DNA from: Nitrospirota bacterium
GTDB lineage: Bacteria; Nitrospirota; Nitrospiria; Nitrospirales; Nitrospiraceae
Assembly (NCBI GenBank): GCA_016219645.1
Contig: JACRLR010000012.1
Coordinates: 1-45,219 of the forward strand
Length of the DNA stretch: 45,219 nt
Direction of reading: 5' to 3'
Under the pieces are notes generated by a model. The model saw only the letters and a program-made list of their open reading frames with translations, was not told the origin of the DNA and made no database searches. Below, one piece after another: positions 1,666-41,509 of the stretch. The position numbers were made by a program, and so were the translations under genes. Positions within the stretch are counted from its first letter, which is position 1, and the number at the start of each line of letters is the position of its first letter.

Positions 1666-2158
1666 GACAATGGATCGCGCTGCGGGTTGGCGATGGTCAG
1701 GTCAGCTAACTGCAAACCGCCGAGAAAGGGTGGTCTTTGTGTCTAACAACAATAAGCTCACAAAAAAGTTCTAAGATTTTGTTAAATACAGCAAATATCT
1801 CTTGTCCGCAGCGGGATACGGCACGGTACTGTCCGACGATGATCGGACAGTCTTCGTGTATTACCTCGCGGAAATTTCCAGCAATCTTAGAACGGCCTGA
1901 TTTGAGCACCTCATAATTTCTCCTGTTTCTCGCTATCCAACACTGCTACCACGCTGCTACCAGGACAGGACAAACCAGCCCCATCAGGGCCCATATCGAG
2001 AGCATCCTGTGTTGTGGTTTCTTGTGGGGCTAGGTTGTCTGAGGTTGGACTAGCTGAAATTCGTAAACCGCAGGTCAGACTCTTAAGCTACTAAAGCAAC
2101 CCCTTGAATATCAAAGCGAAGCGCGTCGGTTAATGACGGTGGAAACGGGTGCCCTCCA
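1666..2158. other. Intergenic stretch with no confident gene
   Basis: About 490 bases follow the DUF1254 gene without a convincing gene. A minus-strand frame from about 1909 to 1706 reads SKIAGNFREVIHEDCPIIVG near its start, faintly like Phd/YefM antitoxins. It begins at GTG out of frame with a better ATG at 1914 that has AGGAGA upstream, and the similarity fades after about 30 residues. If it was ever an antitoxin gene it is now a relic. No toxin gene lies beside it. Confidence 0.3.
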
Positions 2159-2231
2159 CAGCCTTCGCTAAAGCTTCGGCTGGCAAACCAGCTTTCAAGC
2201 GAAGGCTGTCCCCCGAAGCTTTAGCGAAGGG
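2159..2231. repeat. Family A palindromic repeat, inverted pair, in the leader of the GIY-YIG gene
   Basis: The left arm at 2159-2182 is itself palindromic (CCTTCGCTAAAGCTTCGG core). It reappears inverted at 2214-2231 (CCGAAGCTTTAGCGAAGG), so the stretch can fold into one hairpin or two. The right arm ends ten bases before the nuclease start and runs into its G-rich ribosome-binding region. Related sequence occurs at 6736-6768 and 9014-9046. Confidence 0.8.
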
Positions 2232-2240
2232 GGACGGTTC

Positions 2241-2483
2241 ATGAAATTCGTCTACCTCATCCAAAGTCTTGCAGTTCCAAATCAACGCTACATCGGCATC
2301 ACCGCTGACCTCGATGAGCGGCTTCGAACCCACAATTCAGGCGGTTCGTCTCATACATCCAAATATCGTCCTTGGAAGATAGTGCTTCATCTCTGTTTTC
2401 AGGATGAGCAACGTGCGGTCGAATTTGAGCGGTACCTCAAGTCGGGCTCTGGACACGCCTTTGCGAAAAAGCGTTTCTGGTAA
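2241..2483 (+). CDS. Single-domain GIY-YIG nuclease family protein
   Basis: This 80-residue protein is essentially one GIY-YIG domain. VYLIQS near residue 4 and RYIGIT near 16 form the GIY and YIG motifs. DLDERLRTHN carries the conserved arginine, and the C-terminal VEFERYLKSGSGHAFAKKRFW (residues 60-80) carries the glutamate of the fold and a basic tail. The family is that of small UvrC-like/YhbQ-like nucleases, whose native substrates are mostly unknown. The ATG at 2241 follows GGGGGAC directly, and the family A palindrome forms its leader. The gene is intact, unlike most genes around it. A link between nuclease and palindrome is inferred only from position. Confidence 0.85.
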   Translation: MKFVYLIQSLAVPNQRYIGITADLDERLRTHNSGGSSHTSKYRPWKIVLHLCFQDEQRAVEFERYLKSGSGHAFAKKRFW

Positions 2484-3827: not shown

Positions 3828-4404
3828 TATGGGATAGTTCCACGACCCAGGACAATTCGTTCAATCCGATGAAACGGGCTGATCCGAGGAACCCGGCGAG
3901 TCCGATGAATCTGGGCACGTCTGGTGTGCTGGTTCAGGCAGCCTAGACGCAGGATCCGCAGCCAGAGGCCTAGAGGAAAGGGGAAAGGGGTTAGGGAATT
4001 TACCAGGTGGCATCTGTGTAGGTGATGCAGTAGGATAAAGATGGCGCCACAAGACACCGCGATGGAACCACGGCCTAATCCACGTTGGCCACGTGGGACA
4101 TGCTTCGCCTGGGAACTATTGCGGAGTTGTCGCAAAGGCTCGATGCTCGATGGCACCGGGCCTTTGTTGTGTATTGAGGTCGAGGAGCCCGGCGGGCCCC
4201 ATGAATCGGGGGGGCATATGGCGTGCAGTTTCAGCCGGTGGCGCCGTGGGAGTGGCGGAAGCGGAAATCGCGTGAGGAGGCAGGCTTATGTCTTGGCGTT
4301 GGCGCGCTTGGAGTAAGCCTGCGTCGCTCTCAGCGGCACCCGAATCGTGGGCCTAAATAAATCAGGTAGCGGCTGCCCTCCACCAAAGCAAAAATACATA
4401 CCTA
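3828..4404. other. Degraded stretch between SNase relics
   Basis: Apart from the small SNase tail noted separately, this stretch has no recognisable gene. Open frames on both strands are short and Pro/Arg/Gly-rich, as expected for GC-rich non-coding DNA. Confidence 0.4.
4207..4275 (+). pseudogene. Second SNase-like gene remnant (C-terminal end only)
   Basis: The frame at 4232-4275 encodes QPVAPWEWRKRKSR, matching the PVPPWEWRK end of the SNase relic 400 bases upstream and the usual end of this family. About 25 bases before it, degenerate sequence resembles the preceding KGLWA segment. No start or catalytic region survives. This suggests two SNase-like genes, or a partial duplication, once stood here. 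Confidence 0.6.
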
Positions 4405-4530
4405 GCAGGCTGTTGACAAAGTTCGCCAGCGGCGTTCTCGCGGCGCTCAGAGGCTCAACGTACTGCAGAGAGTACGCTTCGCCTCGTCGCTTGCTGCGGC
4501 CTTGCTGGACGGCCTTTCTGAACAGCCTGC
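4405..4530 (+). repeat. Family B long hairpin repeat, copy 1
   Basis: The ends are inverted copies: GCAGGCTGTTgAcaAAG on the left pairs with CTTTCTGAACAGCCTGC on the right, with G opposite G at the lowercase g. Further in, GCCAGC pairs with GCTGG, and the tip is GTACT/AGTAC. The element follows the degraded SNase region and is flanked on the left by CCTA, so the arm reads CTAGCAGG like the other copies. It carries no gene. Confidence 0.75.
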
Positions 4531-4789
4531 GATGGCTTCTGAACGGATCTGTGAGTATCCGCGCTCGATCGTCTTGGTAGCCATGTGGCAACAAGGCCAT
4601 CTAGCCGCTTACCCTCCCATGAGATCTTGTCGGATGCCCCGCAGTCACTGCAGGTGGCCTGGCGCAATGGCAGTGGGGGAGGTTGACAGGTCCTTCGACA
4701 GCTCATAGCCTTACCACTGGCTCTAACGATCAGTTACCTATTCCGATACCGGAGCATCGGATTGCTGATGGGCCTGGTCCAGCAGCGCG

Positions 4790-6488: not shown

Positions 6489-6812
6489 TGTCGCCCCTCT
6501 TAGAATAAGAAAAGCGGGTGCAGTTCCGTGCCGATATGCTACTGGCCAATAATACCAAAGGACAAACCTTAATCATATGCCGTGCAAGAGAGGGCTGGTT
6601 CTGGTGGGGAAGTACGCACCTCGGGATGTCTGCTTTGAGGAACCGGGGAGAGAAGCGAGAGAGGCCAAGATATGGTTATGGACCGAAATAAATGAAAGCG
6701 CAGGAATCAACGATGGACGTAATGGGGTCCCTCAACCAGCCTTCGCTAAGGCTTCGGCTGGCAAGCCAAACGAGGAGAGTTGCGGCTGATAAACCCCTCC
6801 GGAATTCACTTT
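6160..6812. repeat. Segmental duplication, copy 1 (partner 8432-9090)
   Basis: From the USP fragment through its upstream region to cacttt at 6812, the sequence closely matches 8432-9090 in the same order and orientation. The last ~140 bases are almost identical and include a family A palindrome. The two copies then diverge abruptly, each abutting a different piece of an Hpt-like gene. The 60-70-codon open frames across the palindrome (ending FAKASAGKPNEESCG) exist in both copies but look like read-through of repeat rather than genes. Confidence 0.8.
6736..6768. repeat. Family A palindrome inside duplication copy 1
   Basis: CCAGCC and GGCTGG flank TTCGCTAAGGCTTC, giving a short hairpin closely related to the left arm at 2159-2182 before the GIY-YIG gene. 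Confidence 0.7.
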
Positions 6813-8762: not shown

Positions 8763-9090
8763 TGTCGCCCCTCTTTGAACTAGAAAAGCGGCTGCGGTTC
8801 CGTGCCGATGTGCTAAAAGTTATAATACCAGAATACAAACATTAATCACATACTGTGCAATAGAGGGCTGGTACTGGTGGGGTGGGGAAGCAAACACCTG
8901 GGGATATCTGCTTTGAGGAACCGGAGAGAGAAGCGAGAGAGCCCAAGAAATGGTTATGGACCGAAATAAATGAAAGCGCAGGAATCAACGATGGACGTAA
9001 TGGGGTCCCTCAACCAGCCTTCGCTAAGGCTTCGGCTGGCAAGCCAAACGAGGAGAGTTGCGGCTGATAAACCCCTCCGGAATTCACTTT
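8432..9090. repeat. Segmental duplication, copy 2
   Basis: This copy contains the 5' part of the intact USP gene, its upstream region and a family A palindrome, ending in cacttt at 9090. Spacing from the USP start codon to the palindrome is 252-253 bases here and about 250 in copy 1, so the copies align almost without gaps. Because the USP gene is whole here, this is probably the parent copy. The 328 bases between USP and the Hpt fragment hold no other gene. Confidence 0.8.
9014..9046. repeat. Family A palindrome inside duplication copy 2
   Basis: Same sequence as at 6736-6768: CCAGCC/GGCTGG arms around TTCGCTAAGGCTTC, followed by caagcca. Confidence 0.7.
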
Positions 9091-21651: not shown

Positions 21652-22034
21652 AATCCGCCCTTATATCCCTTTCTGTGTGCTATCCCCCATCGGTCTCTGA
21701 CTAAGGGTGTGACAGGGCCTTGGCGCGGACTTTCGCCGGAAGAGCGAAATTCGCAAGCCTGTTCCGCGGGGAAGGAAAGCTGGAATCCACCCAGCTTTCG
21801 TCTTCGGCTCTCTAAGGGGTGGCCTGGTTGGTTCGCGACTGCGCGCATCGAGAACTAAGAGTTTCTTTAGTGGCCCTCCTACACGTCAGGCGAGAAGAGT
21901 TTCGAGGCGACTTTGCCGAAGGAGCGAAGAAACTGAGGCGGTGAGGGGGAGAAGGAAAGTGGAAACTGACAGGGTTCTTACTTTTCTCTTCGTCTTTCTC
22001 ACGGGGTGGCTTGGCTGATCCCCGACTGCGCGCA
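21652..22034. repeat. Two tandem degenerate repeat units beside a family C element
   Basis: A unit at about 21722-21846 and another at about 21905-22034 share order and wording: a gcgactttgccgaaggagcgaa-like start, gaaggaaag, tctcttcgtctttc-like text, ggggtggcytgg, then a cgactgcgcgca end. The last parts are left halves of family C. The first unit has only that half; the second leads into the full element at 22003. No gene is seen in this 350-base stretch. Confidence 0.6.
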
Positions 22035-22268
22035 ACATTCGCACCCACCCACCCACTGGCACGCCGAGACGTGCCATTTGCCCGGGCGAGGGCCTTCAGG
22101 CTCCTCAACTTCCCCAGAGGGAGTAGGCAGATTGTTCTTCACTGCGCGCATCGAGCGACCACTGCTTTATCGTGGGGGCTCTGCGAGCAAGAAGAACGGT
22201 CTGCCTGCTCCCTCGCATCCTTCTGATGCCGCGCGTTGCGCGAGCAAAGGGGACGGCCAGGCTACCCC
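22003..22268 (+). repeat. Family C hairpin repeat, copy 1, with a nested inner copy
   Basis: Outer arms are GGGGTGGCTTGGCTGATCCC (22003) and the inverse of GGGGTAGCCTGGCCGTCCCC (ending 22268). Inside comes an inner stem of TGCGCGC against GCGAGCA. A complete second hairpin lies at 22119-22212, with GGGAGTAGGCAGATTGTTC pairing with GAACGGTCTGCCTGCTCCC through G/T wobbles, and with its own TGCGCGC/GCGAGCA stem. The stop codon of the 4Fe-4S ferredoxin gene (22262-22264) lies inside the right arm. Confidence 0.78.
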
Positions 22269-23346: not shown

Positions 23347-23442
23347 AAATGGTTCCTGCTCGGTTAGCCGACTGCGGAAAGTTTATGTGAACATGCCAAA
23401 ATTTCACTGACGCGCAGGTGTGGGACAAGGCGAAAACGCCAC

Positions 23443-23656
23443 GCAGGATGCTCAAAAAGTCTGTCCAGCAAGGCCGCAGCGAGCGAAGAGGCGAGGAGGT
23501 ACAAACCGCACTTTGTGTGGGCCGTTCGCCCTTTGGATGGATCTTGGCGAACGGAAAATCCCCTCAAGTGCTTTCGACATCCGAGAGGCTCTGTTCGGTA
23601 CGTTAAGCCCCTGAGCGAAGCGAGAACGAAGCTAGCGGACTTTTTCAGCATCCTGC
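23443..23656 (-). repeat. Family B hairpin repeat, copy 2, with an expanded tip
   Basis: Read on the minus strand it starts TAGCAGGATGCTGAAAAAG and ends CTTTTTGAGCATCCTGC, with G facing G at the conserved position. Inner text includes a segment TGCGGCCTTGCTGGACAG as in the other copies. The tip GTACC/GGTAC is split by about 90 extra bases of unrelated sequence. The TAG stop of the zinc-ribbon gene (23656-23658) adjoins and overlaps the arm. Confidence 0.78.
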
Positions 23657-24039
23657 TAGGCCTGCATCGTGGTGGTCTGCATCCGGCCAATCAGTTGTGT
23701 CACATCAGCTGCGGTCAGGAATGGAGAGTGCCCAGCCGTTCCGGAGAGAATCGTCGCAATCTCTCGCAACCGTAACGAGGCCCGTTGAAATTCATCCTGC
23801 GCAGACAGGGTGGAACCCTGGCCGGCAATGAGTTTATCGAATTCCCCCACGATATCACGAAAGTCGCGCTGGAGATTTTTCTGCATCGAACAGCCTTCGC
23901 AGTACCATTTCGGACTTTGATCGGTTGAGGGAGATAGTCGGTCGTAAGTCCGGCCGAAGAAGTCCTTCCCGAGCGATAACTTCATGAGCGCGGTGCCGGT
24001 GGCGCCGCAAGCGTTGCAGGACCCGGACATTGAATCCAT
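23656..24039 (-). CDS. Small zinc-ribbon-like protein of unknown function
   Basis: The 127-residue protein starts ATG 24039 with GGGAGG five bases upstream. Its N-terminal part has CNACGATG and later WYCEGCSMQ, two CxxC pairs about 35 residues apart that could bind zinc. The rest is helical (RDFRDIVGEFDKLIAGQ, ASLRLREIATILSG) and ends in QTTTMQA. No enzyme motif is present. It stands alone, divergent from alanine dehydrogenase, and its stop abuts the family B repeat. Confidence 0.65.
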   Translation of the reverse strand: MDSMSGSCNACGATGTALMKLSLGKDFFGRTYDRLSPSTDQSPKWYCEGCSMQKNLQRDFRDIVGEFDKLIAGQGSTLSAQDEFQRASLRLREIATILSGTAGHSPFLTAADVTQLIGRMQTTTMQA

Positions 24040-28480: not shown

Positions 28481-29185
28481 ATGAGGCCAACAAGTCATCG
28501 AACGGTCGTCTTGGCGAGTGGAGGGCTGGATTCTACCGTCACTGCAGCCATAGCCAAGCAGGAGGGTTGTGAGCTCTTCTTCCTCACGATTGCCTACGGC
28601 CAACGCCATGCAGTGGAGGTAGATCGAGCCAGGCAGGTTGCAGCCGCCTTGGGCGTGGCGAATCATCTGGTGATCAATCTGGACCTTCACGCCATCGGCG
28701 GGTCGGCGCTCACCGGGCCAGCGGCCGTGCCCAAGGACCGAGCAAGCAAAGAGCGTCGCCAGAGCATTCCTGTCACATATGTGCCGGGACGGAACCTCAT
28801 CTTTCTCTCGATTGCGGCAGCGCATGCGGAGGTCGTGGGAGCGACTTCCATCTATTTTGGTGCAAACGTGCTCGACTATTCCGGTTATCCCGACTGTCAG
28901 CCTGAGTTCATTCGTGCGTTTGAAGCCGTGGCAAAAGAGGGGACAAAAGCCGGACGAGAAGGGATCCCCCTCCATGTCAAAGCCCCCTTGCTGATGCTGA
29001 CGAAAGAGGAAATCATCCGGCAAGGGATTGAGCTACATGTCCCGTTTCATTTGACCCATAGTTGTTACGATCCGGTGGGGGATCAGGCTTGCGGACGGTG
29101 CGATAGTTGTCTGATCCGGCTGGAAGGATTTGCGAAGGCTGGGGTTGTGGATCCCATCGCCTATGCGATAACCTCAGGATGTTGA
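28481..29185 (+). CDS. queC: 7-cyano-7-deazaguanine synthase
   Basis: QueC makes preQ0 from 7-carboxy-7-deazaguanine with ATP and ammonia, for queuosine in tRNA. The 234-residue protein (ATG 28481; 28466 is also possible) has the pyrophosphate loop VVLASGGLDSTVTAAIAKQE, the family text YGQRHAVEVDRA and VPGRNLIFLSIAAAHAE, and the zinc site CYDPVGDQACGRCDSC. It is 142 bases after the DksA-like gene. Its last codons and TGA stop (29183-29185) lie within the left arm of a family B repeat. No other queuosine gene and no preQ1 riboswitch is visible nearby. Confidence 0.95.
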   Translation: MRPTSHRTVVLASGGLDSTVTAAIAKQEGCELFFLTIAYGQRHAVEVDRARQVAAALGVANHLVINLDLHAIGGSALTGPAAVPKDRASKERRQSIPVTYVPGRNLIFLSIAAAHAEVVGATSIYFGANVLDYSGYPDCQPEFIRAFEAVAKEGTKAGREGIPLHVKAPLLMLTKEEIIRQGIELHVPFHLTHSCYDPVGDQACGRCDSCLIRLEGFAKAGVVDPIAYAITSGC

Positions 29186-29298
29186 AACAGGCGGCCAGCG
29201 CCGTTCTCGCCTCATCGAAATCCTCAACGTACCCCAGAGGGTACGCCTCTGGTTTCGATTCGGCTGCGGCCTTGCTGGCCATTCTGTTTGAACATCCT
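29176..29298 (+). repeat. Family B hairpin repeat, copy 3 (cleanest copy)
   Basis: AGGATGTTgAAACAG pairs with CTGTTTgAACATCCT with G opposite G. GGCCAGC then pairs with GCTGGCC, TCGAAA with TTTCGA, and the tip is GTACCC/GGGTAC around CAGA. The whole 123-base element folds as a single interrupted hairpin. The queC stop codon TGA is part of its left arm, and the ribosome-binding site of the next gene (AAAGGAG) starts just after its right end. Confidence 0.82.
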
Positions 29299-29318
29299 GT
29301 AAAGGAGTTAAATTGAAC

Positions 29319-32409: not shown

Positions 32410-32635
32410 AGGATGCTCAAAAAGCCCGTCCAGCAAGGCCGCAGCGAGCTATCACTCTATAAGGGGTGGCTGGGATGATCCCAATTGCGCGCGTCCTTTC
32501 TATCCCATATTTTCGTTTAAGGGCAGCCTGGTCGATCCTCGATTGCGCGCGTCGAACGAGCACATTCTGATCGTGCGCGTTCCGCGAGCAGGAGGATGAC
32601 CAGGCTGCCCGCCCCCCCTTTTTCAGCATCCTGCT
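32410..32635 (-). repeat. Family B hairpin repeat, copy 4, interrupted by family C
   Basis: The outer parts are clear: AGGATGCTCAAAAAGCCCG with CAGCAAGGCCGCAGCGAGC at 32410-32449, and CTTTTTCAGCATCCTGC at 32618-32634. On the minus strand the conserved G faces G. The middle of the B element is missing and replaced by family C sequence (a half element at 32462-32494 and a complete one at 32521-32610). The ribE stop (32634-32636) adjoins the right arm. Confidence 0.78.
32521..32610 (+). repeat. Family C hairpin repeat, copy 3, complete and compact
   Basis: GGGCAGCCTGGTC at 32521 is exactly inverted at the end (GACCAGGCTGCCC to 32610). ATCCTC/GAGGAT continues the stem after a single extra base. 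TGCGCGC then faces GCGAGCA with one G/A mismatch, and the tip holds ACGAGCACATTCTGATCGTG. The 90-base element lies inside family B copy 4. Confidence 0.8.
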
Positions 32636-41238: not shown

Positions 41239-41509
41239 ATAGGTGGTCCGGATGAGTCGCCCTATTGCGCGCGACATTCTCACCCGCCCACCCACTGGCA
41301 CGTCGAGACGTGCCATTATACCCGGGCGAGGGTCTTCTGACTCCCCAACGTTCCAGAGGGAGTAGGCAGATTGTTCTTCACTGCGCGCATCGAGCGACCA
41401 CTGCTTTATCGTGGGGGCTCTGCGAGCAAGAAGAACGGTCTGCCTGCTCCCTCGCATCCTTCTGAGACCGGCCGTCACGCGAGCACGGGGGACTCACCGG
41501 ACCACCTAT
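41239..41509 (+). repeat. Family C hairpin repeat, copy 2, with a nested inner copy
   Basis: Outer arms are ATAGGTGGTCCGG (41239) and CCGGACCACCTAT (to 41509), entirely different from copy 1 but perfectly self-complementary. TGCGCGC/GCGAGCA again follows inside. The inner hairpin at 41358-41451 is identical to that at 22119-22212, and identity continues a few bases past it. It ends four bases before the glyS stop (41513-41515). Confidence 0.8.

Follow-up and report, generated by a model that had tools for sequence, protein, structure and literature searches.

Free-standing GIY-YIG homing endonuclease genes, e.g. those for the Seg proteins of phage T4, are lone genes beside a functional, conserved target gene, and are patchily distributed with empty and occupied alleles. 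In the RAYT/REPtron systems (TnpA-REP, REP/REPIN) a single nuclease gene, encoding an HUH tyrosine transposase, lies beside inverted imperfect palindromes, which are present in hundreds of copies and also occur without the gene, in trans. Integrative elements that target tRNA genes, i.e. islands with a tyrosine or serine integrase, use the tRNA 3′ end and keep the tRNA intact. The Tsy transposons target comM and need tyrosine recombinases, transposition being improved by an accessory GIY-YIG nuclease (PMC10293859). The GTAG- and CGTC-tagged REPs of Alphaproteobacteria are short palindromes, often in opposed pairs, and the CGTC REPs have no known transposase (PMC3733652).

The locus compared with these systems here lies in a 45,219-nucleotide stretch of a Nitrospirota bacterium genome (the window; contig JACRLR010000012.1) and combines a GIY-YIG nuclease gene with a leader of two hairpins. 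Comparison of homologous loci identifies this combination as a widespread element, located in many phyla exactly at the CCA end of tRNA or tmRNA genes. As compared between loci, the unit comprises the two-hairpin leader, directly after the tRNA CCA, and the one GIY-YIG gene, with the tRNA staying intact; different lineages occupy different tRNAs, and leader-only copies lie behind other tRNAs of the same genomes. It is probably a minimal, homing-like selfish element of ~0.33–0.4 kb that targets tRNA ends, and whose mobility we infer. As with the homing genes, a lone GIY-YIG gene with intact catalytic residues lies beside a conserved target that stays functional, at a fixed insertion point (the tRNA 3′ end), with unoccupied alleles and a patchy distribution. 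By contrast with them, the hairpin leader absorbs the CCA of the target, many tRNAs are targeted and there are gene-less derivatives. The tRNA-targeting islands likewise use the tRNA 3′ end and keep the tRNA intact, but the unit described here has no integrase, is only ~0.4 kb long and in most copies has no clear far-side repeat of the tRNA end. Tsy, also a mobile element with a GIY-YIG nuclease, differs in that its nuclease is accessory to the tyrosine recombinases and its target is comM (PMC10293859), whereas here the GIY-YIG gene is the only recurrent gene. No published description of the element was found in the open-access literature, though one may exist elsewhere; it is apparently undescribed so far.

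In the window the parts of the unit and the sequences related to it are:

2150..2159, + strand: copy of the tRNA-Ala(CGC) 3′ end, TGCCCTCCAC, followed by AGCC and with one C less than TGCCCTCCACCAGCC; junction between the foreign left flank and the element, where the alignment with tRNA-located elements begins
2159..2182, + strand: hairpin 1, with stem CAGC/GCTG, unpaired core CTTCG/CTTCG and upper loop CTAAAG
2199..2208, + strand: GCGAAGGCTG, which exactly complements the start of hairpin 1 and could form an alternative long-range stem
2208..2235, + strand: hairpin 2, with stem GTCCCC/GGGGAC around CGAAG-CTTTAG-CGAAG
2241..2483, + strand: gene for an 80-aa single-domain GIY-YIG nuclease (PF01541 match, invariant residues, dN/dS)
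4374..4385, + strand: unoccupied copy of the target, TGCCCTCCACCA, which ends a dispersed island-end repeat spanning about 4237–4385
6727..6768, + strand: gene-less copy, hairpin 1 alone, preceded by tRNA-end-like GTCCCTCAACCA
9005..9046, + strand: second gene-less copy, counterpart of the one at 6727..6768 in the other arm of the duplicated segment

The palindrome CTTCGCTAAAGCTTCGG occurs at 2163–2179 (+) and 2213–2229 (−), ahead of the 80-codon ORF, and with one mismatch at 6741 and 9019; these four matches in the window compare with 0.11 expected, and none of 100 shuffles reached four. The 80 nt ahead of the ATG (2241) are taken up by hairpin 1, its second complement (2199–2208) and hairpin 2, whose 3′ arm contains a Shine-Dalgarno-like AAGGGGG (2227–2233) at a distance of 7 nt from the ATG. 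A sequence-only reading of the window had proposed that a palindrome pair leads an intact GIY-YIG gene and includes part of its ribosome-binding region, both of which hold. The pair and the gene are thus real, but the limits then given to the feature, 2159–2483, fall short on the upstream side, where the tRNA-end copy at 2150–2159 begins; the position at a CCA end had been missed because the tRNA belonging to the window copy has apparently been separated from the element by an island, only its 3′ end being left. The palindromes had also been described as dispersed, which goes too far. The near-copies at 6741 and 9019 are there, but are limited to hairpin 1, and each belongs to one arm of a duplicated segment (6160–6812/8431–9090, 89% identical); thus the gene-less copies at 6736 and 9014, in two arms of one ~660-nt duplication, may represent a single event. 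Outside the window, the 3.65 Mb genome has no further good copy, only one weak match with two mismatches. The same duplication carries, besides the gene-less hairpin, remnants that resemble universal stress protein genes.

The ORF at 2241–2483 encodes one GIY-YIG domain (PF01541, 51.4 bits against a cut-off of 22.6, E = 1.4e-13), which is the only profile passing its cut-off in the 80-aa protein; there is no HUH tyrosine (Y1) transposase. The gene is single copy in the genome. The family-invariant residues, including Y17, R27, H31, E63 and K67, are kept, and the C-terminal SG.AFA.K motif is typical of the clade to which the nuclease belongs. Its AlphaFold model has a pLDDT of 95.6, with Slx1/HIGLE and UPF0213 as the closest folds. 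Slx1 acts on branched DNA, and by analogy the 80-aa nuclease may do likewise. From the profile match and the model, the protein is a single domain, with no separate DNA-binding domain of the type that gives homing endonucleases a long recognition site and could account for the choice of target, a point that counts against a homing-like element.

The gene is under strong purifying selection, with dN/dS values of ~0.07 in Nitrospira and 0.05 in Bradyrhizobium, several of the Bradyrhizobium pairs being saturated. Such constraint is also what a domesticated host system would show, i.e. one in which the hairpins are tRNA 3′ trailers or terminators and tRNA precursors, or branched DNA at these highly transcribed sites, are the substrate of the nuclease. 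The hairpins would then be co-transcribed with the tRNA; the presence of a homologue in 74 of 80 Bradyrhizobium genomes and the gene-less hairpins of that genus, retained mostly at tRNA-Tyr, fit with this role. It is nonetheless an unlikely explanation, in that presence is otherwise patchy (11 of 32 Nitrospira and 49 of 385 alphaproteobacterial genomes), close relatives have tRNAs of the same isotype that lack the hairpin, targets differ between lineages and different leader families are found at one and the same site.

The evidence for the position at tRNA ends comes from several sets of loci. The genome collection yielded 47 homologous loci, 45 of which were examined for tRNAs with ARAGORN; in 35 of these, spread over several phyla, a tRNA lies just upstream on the same strand, with the gene ≤260 nt from its 3′ end. 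Among the ten loci lacking an ARAGORN tRNA, three are behind tmRNA (two confirmed by Rfam), L036 has tRNA-Tyr followed by a tandem leader, and L011 and L045 have a tRNA-end stub like that in the window. At the junction, the tRNA sequence ...CTCCACCA is followed by the hairpin sequence GCCTTCGC in Nitrospira, ...CCCCCACCA by TCCTGCTTCGC in Bradyrhizobium, and ...GCGCCA by CTGCTTCGC in Micavibrio. In Bradyrhizobium 46 of 50 gene loci (27/30, then 19/20) are behind a tRNA, either tRNA-Tyr or tRNA-Ala(GGC), whereas paralogous GIY-YIG genes of 41–46% identity, used as a control, are so placed in 1 of 17 (Fisher p about 7e-11). In this regard the nuclease differs from UPF0213 and Slx1, with which it shares a fold and catalytic domain: no published link between these and tRNA ends was found, and 16 of the 17 paralogues lack the tRNA position.

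A match was present in 49 of the 385 genomes of an independent alphaproteobacterial sample, and 21 of the 28 new loci are ≤300 nt from a tRNA, the targets being Leu, Pro, His, Gln, Ser, Met, Val, Lys, Tyr, Ala and Asp; the loci without a tRNA mostly have a CCA-ended, acceptor-like stub or reach a contig edge. All seven further family members in Nitrospirota are behind tRNA-Ala, tRNA-Ser, tRNA-Phe or tmRNA (two after tmRNA). When all loci are pooled there are 107 non-identical upstream tRNAs, 104 with a CCA end and 99 with a CT[TA]CG core within 10 nt; loci from the same genus are not independent of each other, yet many tRNA isotypes and phyla are represented. The check proposed from the window, whether the palindrome pair consistently precedes homologues of the nuclease, came out in favour. 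Overall, at least 14 tRNA isotypes (by amino acid) plus tmRNA are targeted, and on the tree 24 changes of target are needed, the minimum being 14. Targets are largely conserved within clades and the copies within one genome are diverged, from which it follows that most copies were probably inherited vertically.

Neither a sharp right end nor a target-site duplication was found, and a tRNA 3′-end repeat of >12 nt downstream of the gene is absent in the great majority of loci. Longer downstream repeats of this type are confined to L034 and the Bacteroidota/Balneolota type (L050, L051 and L053), and an att-like direct repeat beyond the gene was rejected as a general feature because it is absent from most copies. 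In the Bacteroidota/Balneolota type the order is tRNA, GIY-YIG gene and then a copy of the tRNA 3′ half with an inserted palindrome (e.g. TCCGCCTGAGGCGGA). In a TM6 bacterium (L032) a tandem second leader and a related coding remnant lie just downstream of the gene, an arrangement suggesting repeated insertion at one tRNA. Of the more distant mini-GIY-YIG genes of Nitrospirota (L314–L333, 35–45% identity), 8 of 20 also have a tRNA close upstream, in most cases with no CTTCG core, and at two of these loci (L318 and L330) the tRNA CCA is part of a different perfect palindrome. The link to tRNAs may be older than the CTTCG type of leader.

Empty sites can be compared directly with occupied ones. 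The 32 Nitrospira genomes include some with an element at tRNA-Ala(CGC) and some in which this site is empty; the tRNA genes and att-like copies that carry the element and those that do not are alike through the CCA and diverge from the very next base. Close relatives have hairpin-free tRNAs of the same isotype. The tRNA-end copies at island ends are similarly variable, being free in the window (4374–4385) and in L012, whereas that of L084 holds a gene-less element and that of L077 a gene fragment. At the Bradyrhizobium tRNA-Tyr position one of three leader families is found, mostly without the gene. A search of eight complete Bradyrhizobium genomes with the leader core, tRNA sequence excluded, gave 30 matches, or 2–7 per genome, almost every one of which follows a tRNA (Tyr, Ala, Val, Leu and others) or a copy of a tRNA end. 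That the palindrome follows the presence of the gene, also put forward for checking from the window, is supported in Nitrospira, where it is present in all 11 genomes with the gene as against 4 of the 21 without (Fisher p = 1e-5), but not in Bradyrhizobium, where it is present in 59 of the 74 genomes with a homologue and in 4 of the 6 without. Together these counts indicate that leaders can outlive the gene.

The leader itself has a consistent architecture. In hairpin 1 a short lower stem is separated from an upper stem-loop by an unpaired core, in which CTTCG faces CTTCG or CTACG; this design is kept in most homologous loci, with lower stems that vary yet stay complementary (CCAGC/GCTGG, CCAAC/GTTGG, CCACA/TGTGG, GCCATA/TATGGC, CACTG/CAGTG, ATCCTG/CAGGAT), and the 5′ arm of the lower stem takes in all or part of the CCA of the tRNA. 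A second, inverted copy of the 5′ arm closes a larger stem; the arrangement represented by GCGAAGGCTG in the window is also present in folded relatives and in gene-less leaders. Hairpin 2 has the design of hairpin 1 reversed (CGAAG/CGAAG). The covariation of the stems argues for selection on the folded form, be it DNA or RNA. Comparison of the window leader with Rfam gave only weak matches far below the gathering score, and in relatives tRNA and tmRNA alone matched at that score, so a known RNA family was rejected as the identity of the leader.

The palindromes were thought from the window to have a layout like that of RAYT genes with REPs. The likeness extends to one nuclease gene beside inverted imperfect palindromes and to gene-less copies in trans; it does not extend to the nuclease, GIY-YIG here as opposed to HUH, to the arrangement, in which the palindromes precede the gene in one leader, to the location at tRNA 3′ ends or to abundance, a REP-like copy number being rejected at 1–7 copies per genome rather than hundreds. 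Transposition of a REP/RAYT-like type, in which the GIY-YIG protein would recognise the mismatched hairpins as single-stranded DNA and move the leaders, with tRNA ends as the preferred landing site, would be consistent with the conserved unpaired core, the covarying stems, the opposite orientation of the paired hairpins and the gene-less copies. With so few copies, and those nearly exclusively at tRNA ends, it appears quite improbable; we also know of no strand-transfer chemistry for GIY-YIG nucleases. The GTAG/CGTC REPs differ in their high copy number, stems of 8–9 bp and small loops, with no tRNA-end position reported for them (PMC3733652). The core here is CTTCG/CTTCG, and GTAG or GAAG is seen inside the internal loop of the leader, not at the foot of the hairpin. 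The sequences of Br-REP1/2 (PMC5082802) also differ from the palindromes, for which they were rejected as an identity. Away from tRNA ends and without the gene, palindromes with the same CTTCGCTAAAGCTTCG core are found in three Nitrospira loci (L068, L078 and L086).

The surroundings of the window copy are informative as to its history. L008/L009 and L011 have the element and 3 kb downstream in common; L011 and L045 have the left flank of the window, ending in the tRNA-Ala 3′ end, and in L008/L009 and L056 an intact tRNA is present at the junction point of the window. The tRNA-Ala(CGC) gene of the genome itself, L108 (G000:C15:13316-13391), adjoins a long ORF ending at the tRNA, which by eye reads like a large serine recombinase. 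The flank shared with L011, together with this ORF, suggests that an island probably integrated at tRNA-Ala, parting the tRNA from the element, and that the window holds its far end. With a tRNA-end stub like those of L011 and L045, the window copy is thus a family member from which the tRNA was probably cut away. Insertion at arbitrary attachment-site repeats was considered and abandoned, because the repeats are copies of tRNA ends and the islands lie between the tRNA and the element. Sequence similar to that bordering the tRNA of L108 occurs directly after the CCA in L091, L103, L106, L111 and L114, and the dispersed repeat at 4237–4385 of the window, which ends in the tRNA-Ala 3′ end and is present in several Nitrospira, is probably the right end of integrative islands.

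It might be argued from such surroundings that the gene is a passenger of tRNA-targeting islands, i.e. cargo left at attachment sites: tRNA-Ala(CGC) and tRNA-Tyr are apparently hot spots for islands, the copy in the window is at an att-like tRNA-end repeat and the tRNA-Ala of the genome adjoins the serine-recombinase-like ORF. This explanation is disfavoured and very improbable, given that the unit occurs without an integrase or a shared neighbour, has a fixed position directly after the CCA of at least 14 tRNA isotypes plus tmRNA, and in L011, L045 and the window is separated from the tRNA by the island. Across 40 diverse loci the GIY-YIG gene is the only recurrent gene, with no conserved partner gene or integrase in the unit, and a conserved partner was rejected for want of any neighbour shared across loci. 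Carriage by plasmids or phages was likewise rejected, no carrier being found: the window protein had no match in plasmids or phages at E 1e-6, and viral contigs gave a single match, weak and partial.

If the unit is, as we favour, a homing-like element, the nuclease could cut the unoccupied tRNA 3′ end, its own branched, extruded hairpins, or both, and host repair could then copy the element into the break, so enabling spread. Leader-only copies may be mobilised in trans. Expression of the nuclease may be by read-through from the tRNA promoter, and, as hairpin 2 overlaps the ribosome-binding site, the nuclease might limit its own translation by way of this hairpin. Insertion behind the CCA would keep the tRNA functional, an advantage that integrases also gain at tRNA ends. 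Counting against such an element are the mostly vertical inheritance of the copies, the lack of a sharp right end and of a target-site duplication, the leaders that outlast the gene in Bradyrhizobium and the absence of a plasmid or phage carrier in the searches.

A more far-reaching proposal, which we put forward tentatively from the sequences, is that the element represents a new class of mobile DNA whose only mobility enzyme is a GIY-YIG nuclease; this would recognise hairpin ends with mismatches and place units, either carrying the gene or lacking it, exactly behind the CCA of any tRNA or tmRNA, the CCA doubling as part of the terminal hairpin. Many tiny stand-alone GIY-YIG genes of bacterial genomes lack an assigned role; for a good share of these, the fixed position at tRNA/tmRNA 3′ ends, seen in about six phyla, provides a common identity and a mechanism that can be tested. 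If mobile, the units would be among the smallest self-contained mobile units known, and a third type of enzyme exploiting tRNA ends would join the tyrosine and serine integrases. It would also account for the recurrent palindromes behind tRNA genes that resemble terminators or repeats.

Other repeats are also present in the window. One dispersed family (AGGATGCTCAAAAAGTCTGTCCAGCAAGGCCGCAGCGAGC) is found in both orientations at 4394–4531, 23442–23667, 29175–29299 and 32410–32449, and a pair at 22021–22254 and 41260–41493, of 90–94% identity, contains the palindrome GGCACGCCGAGACGTGCC.
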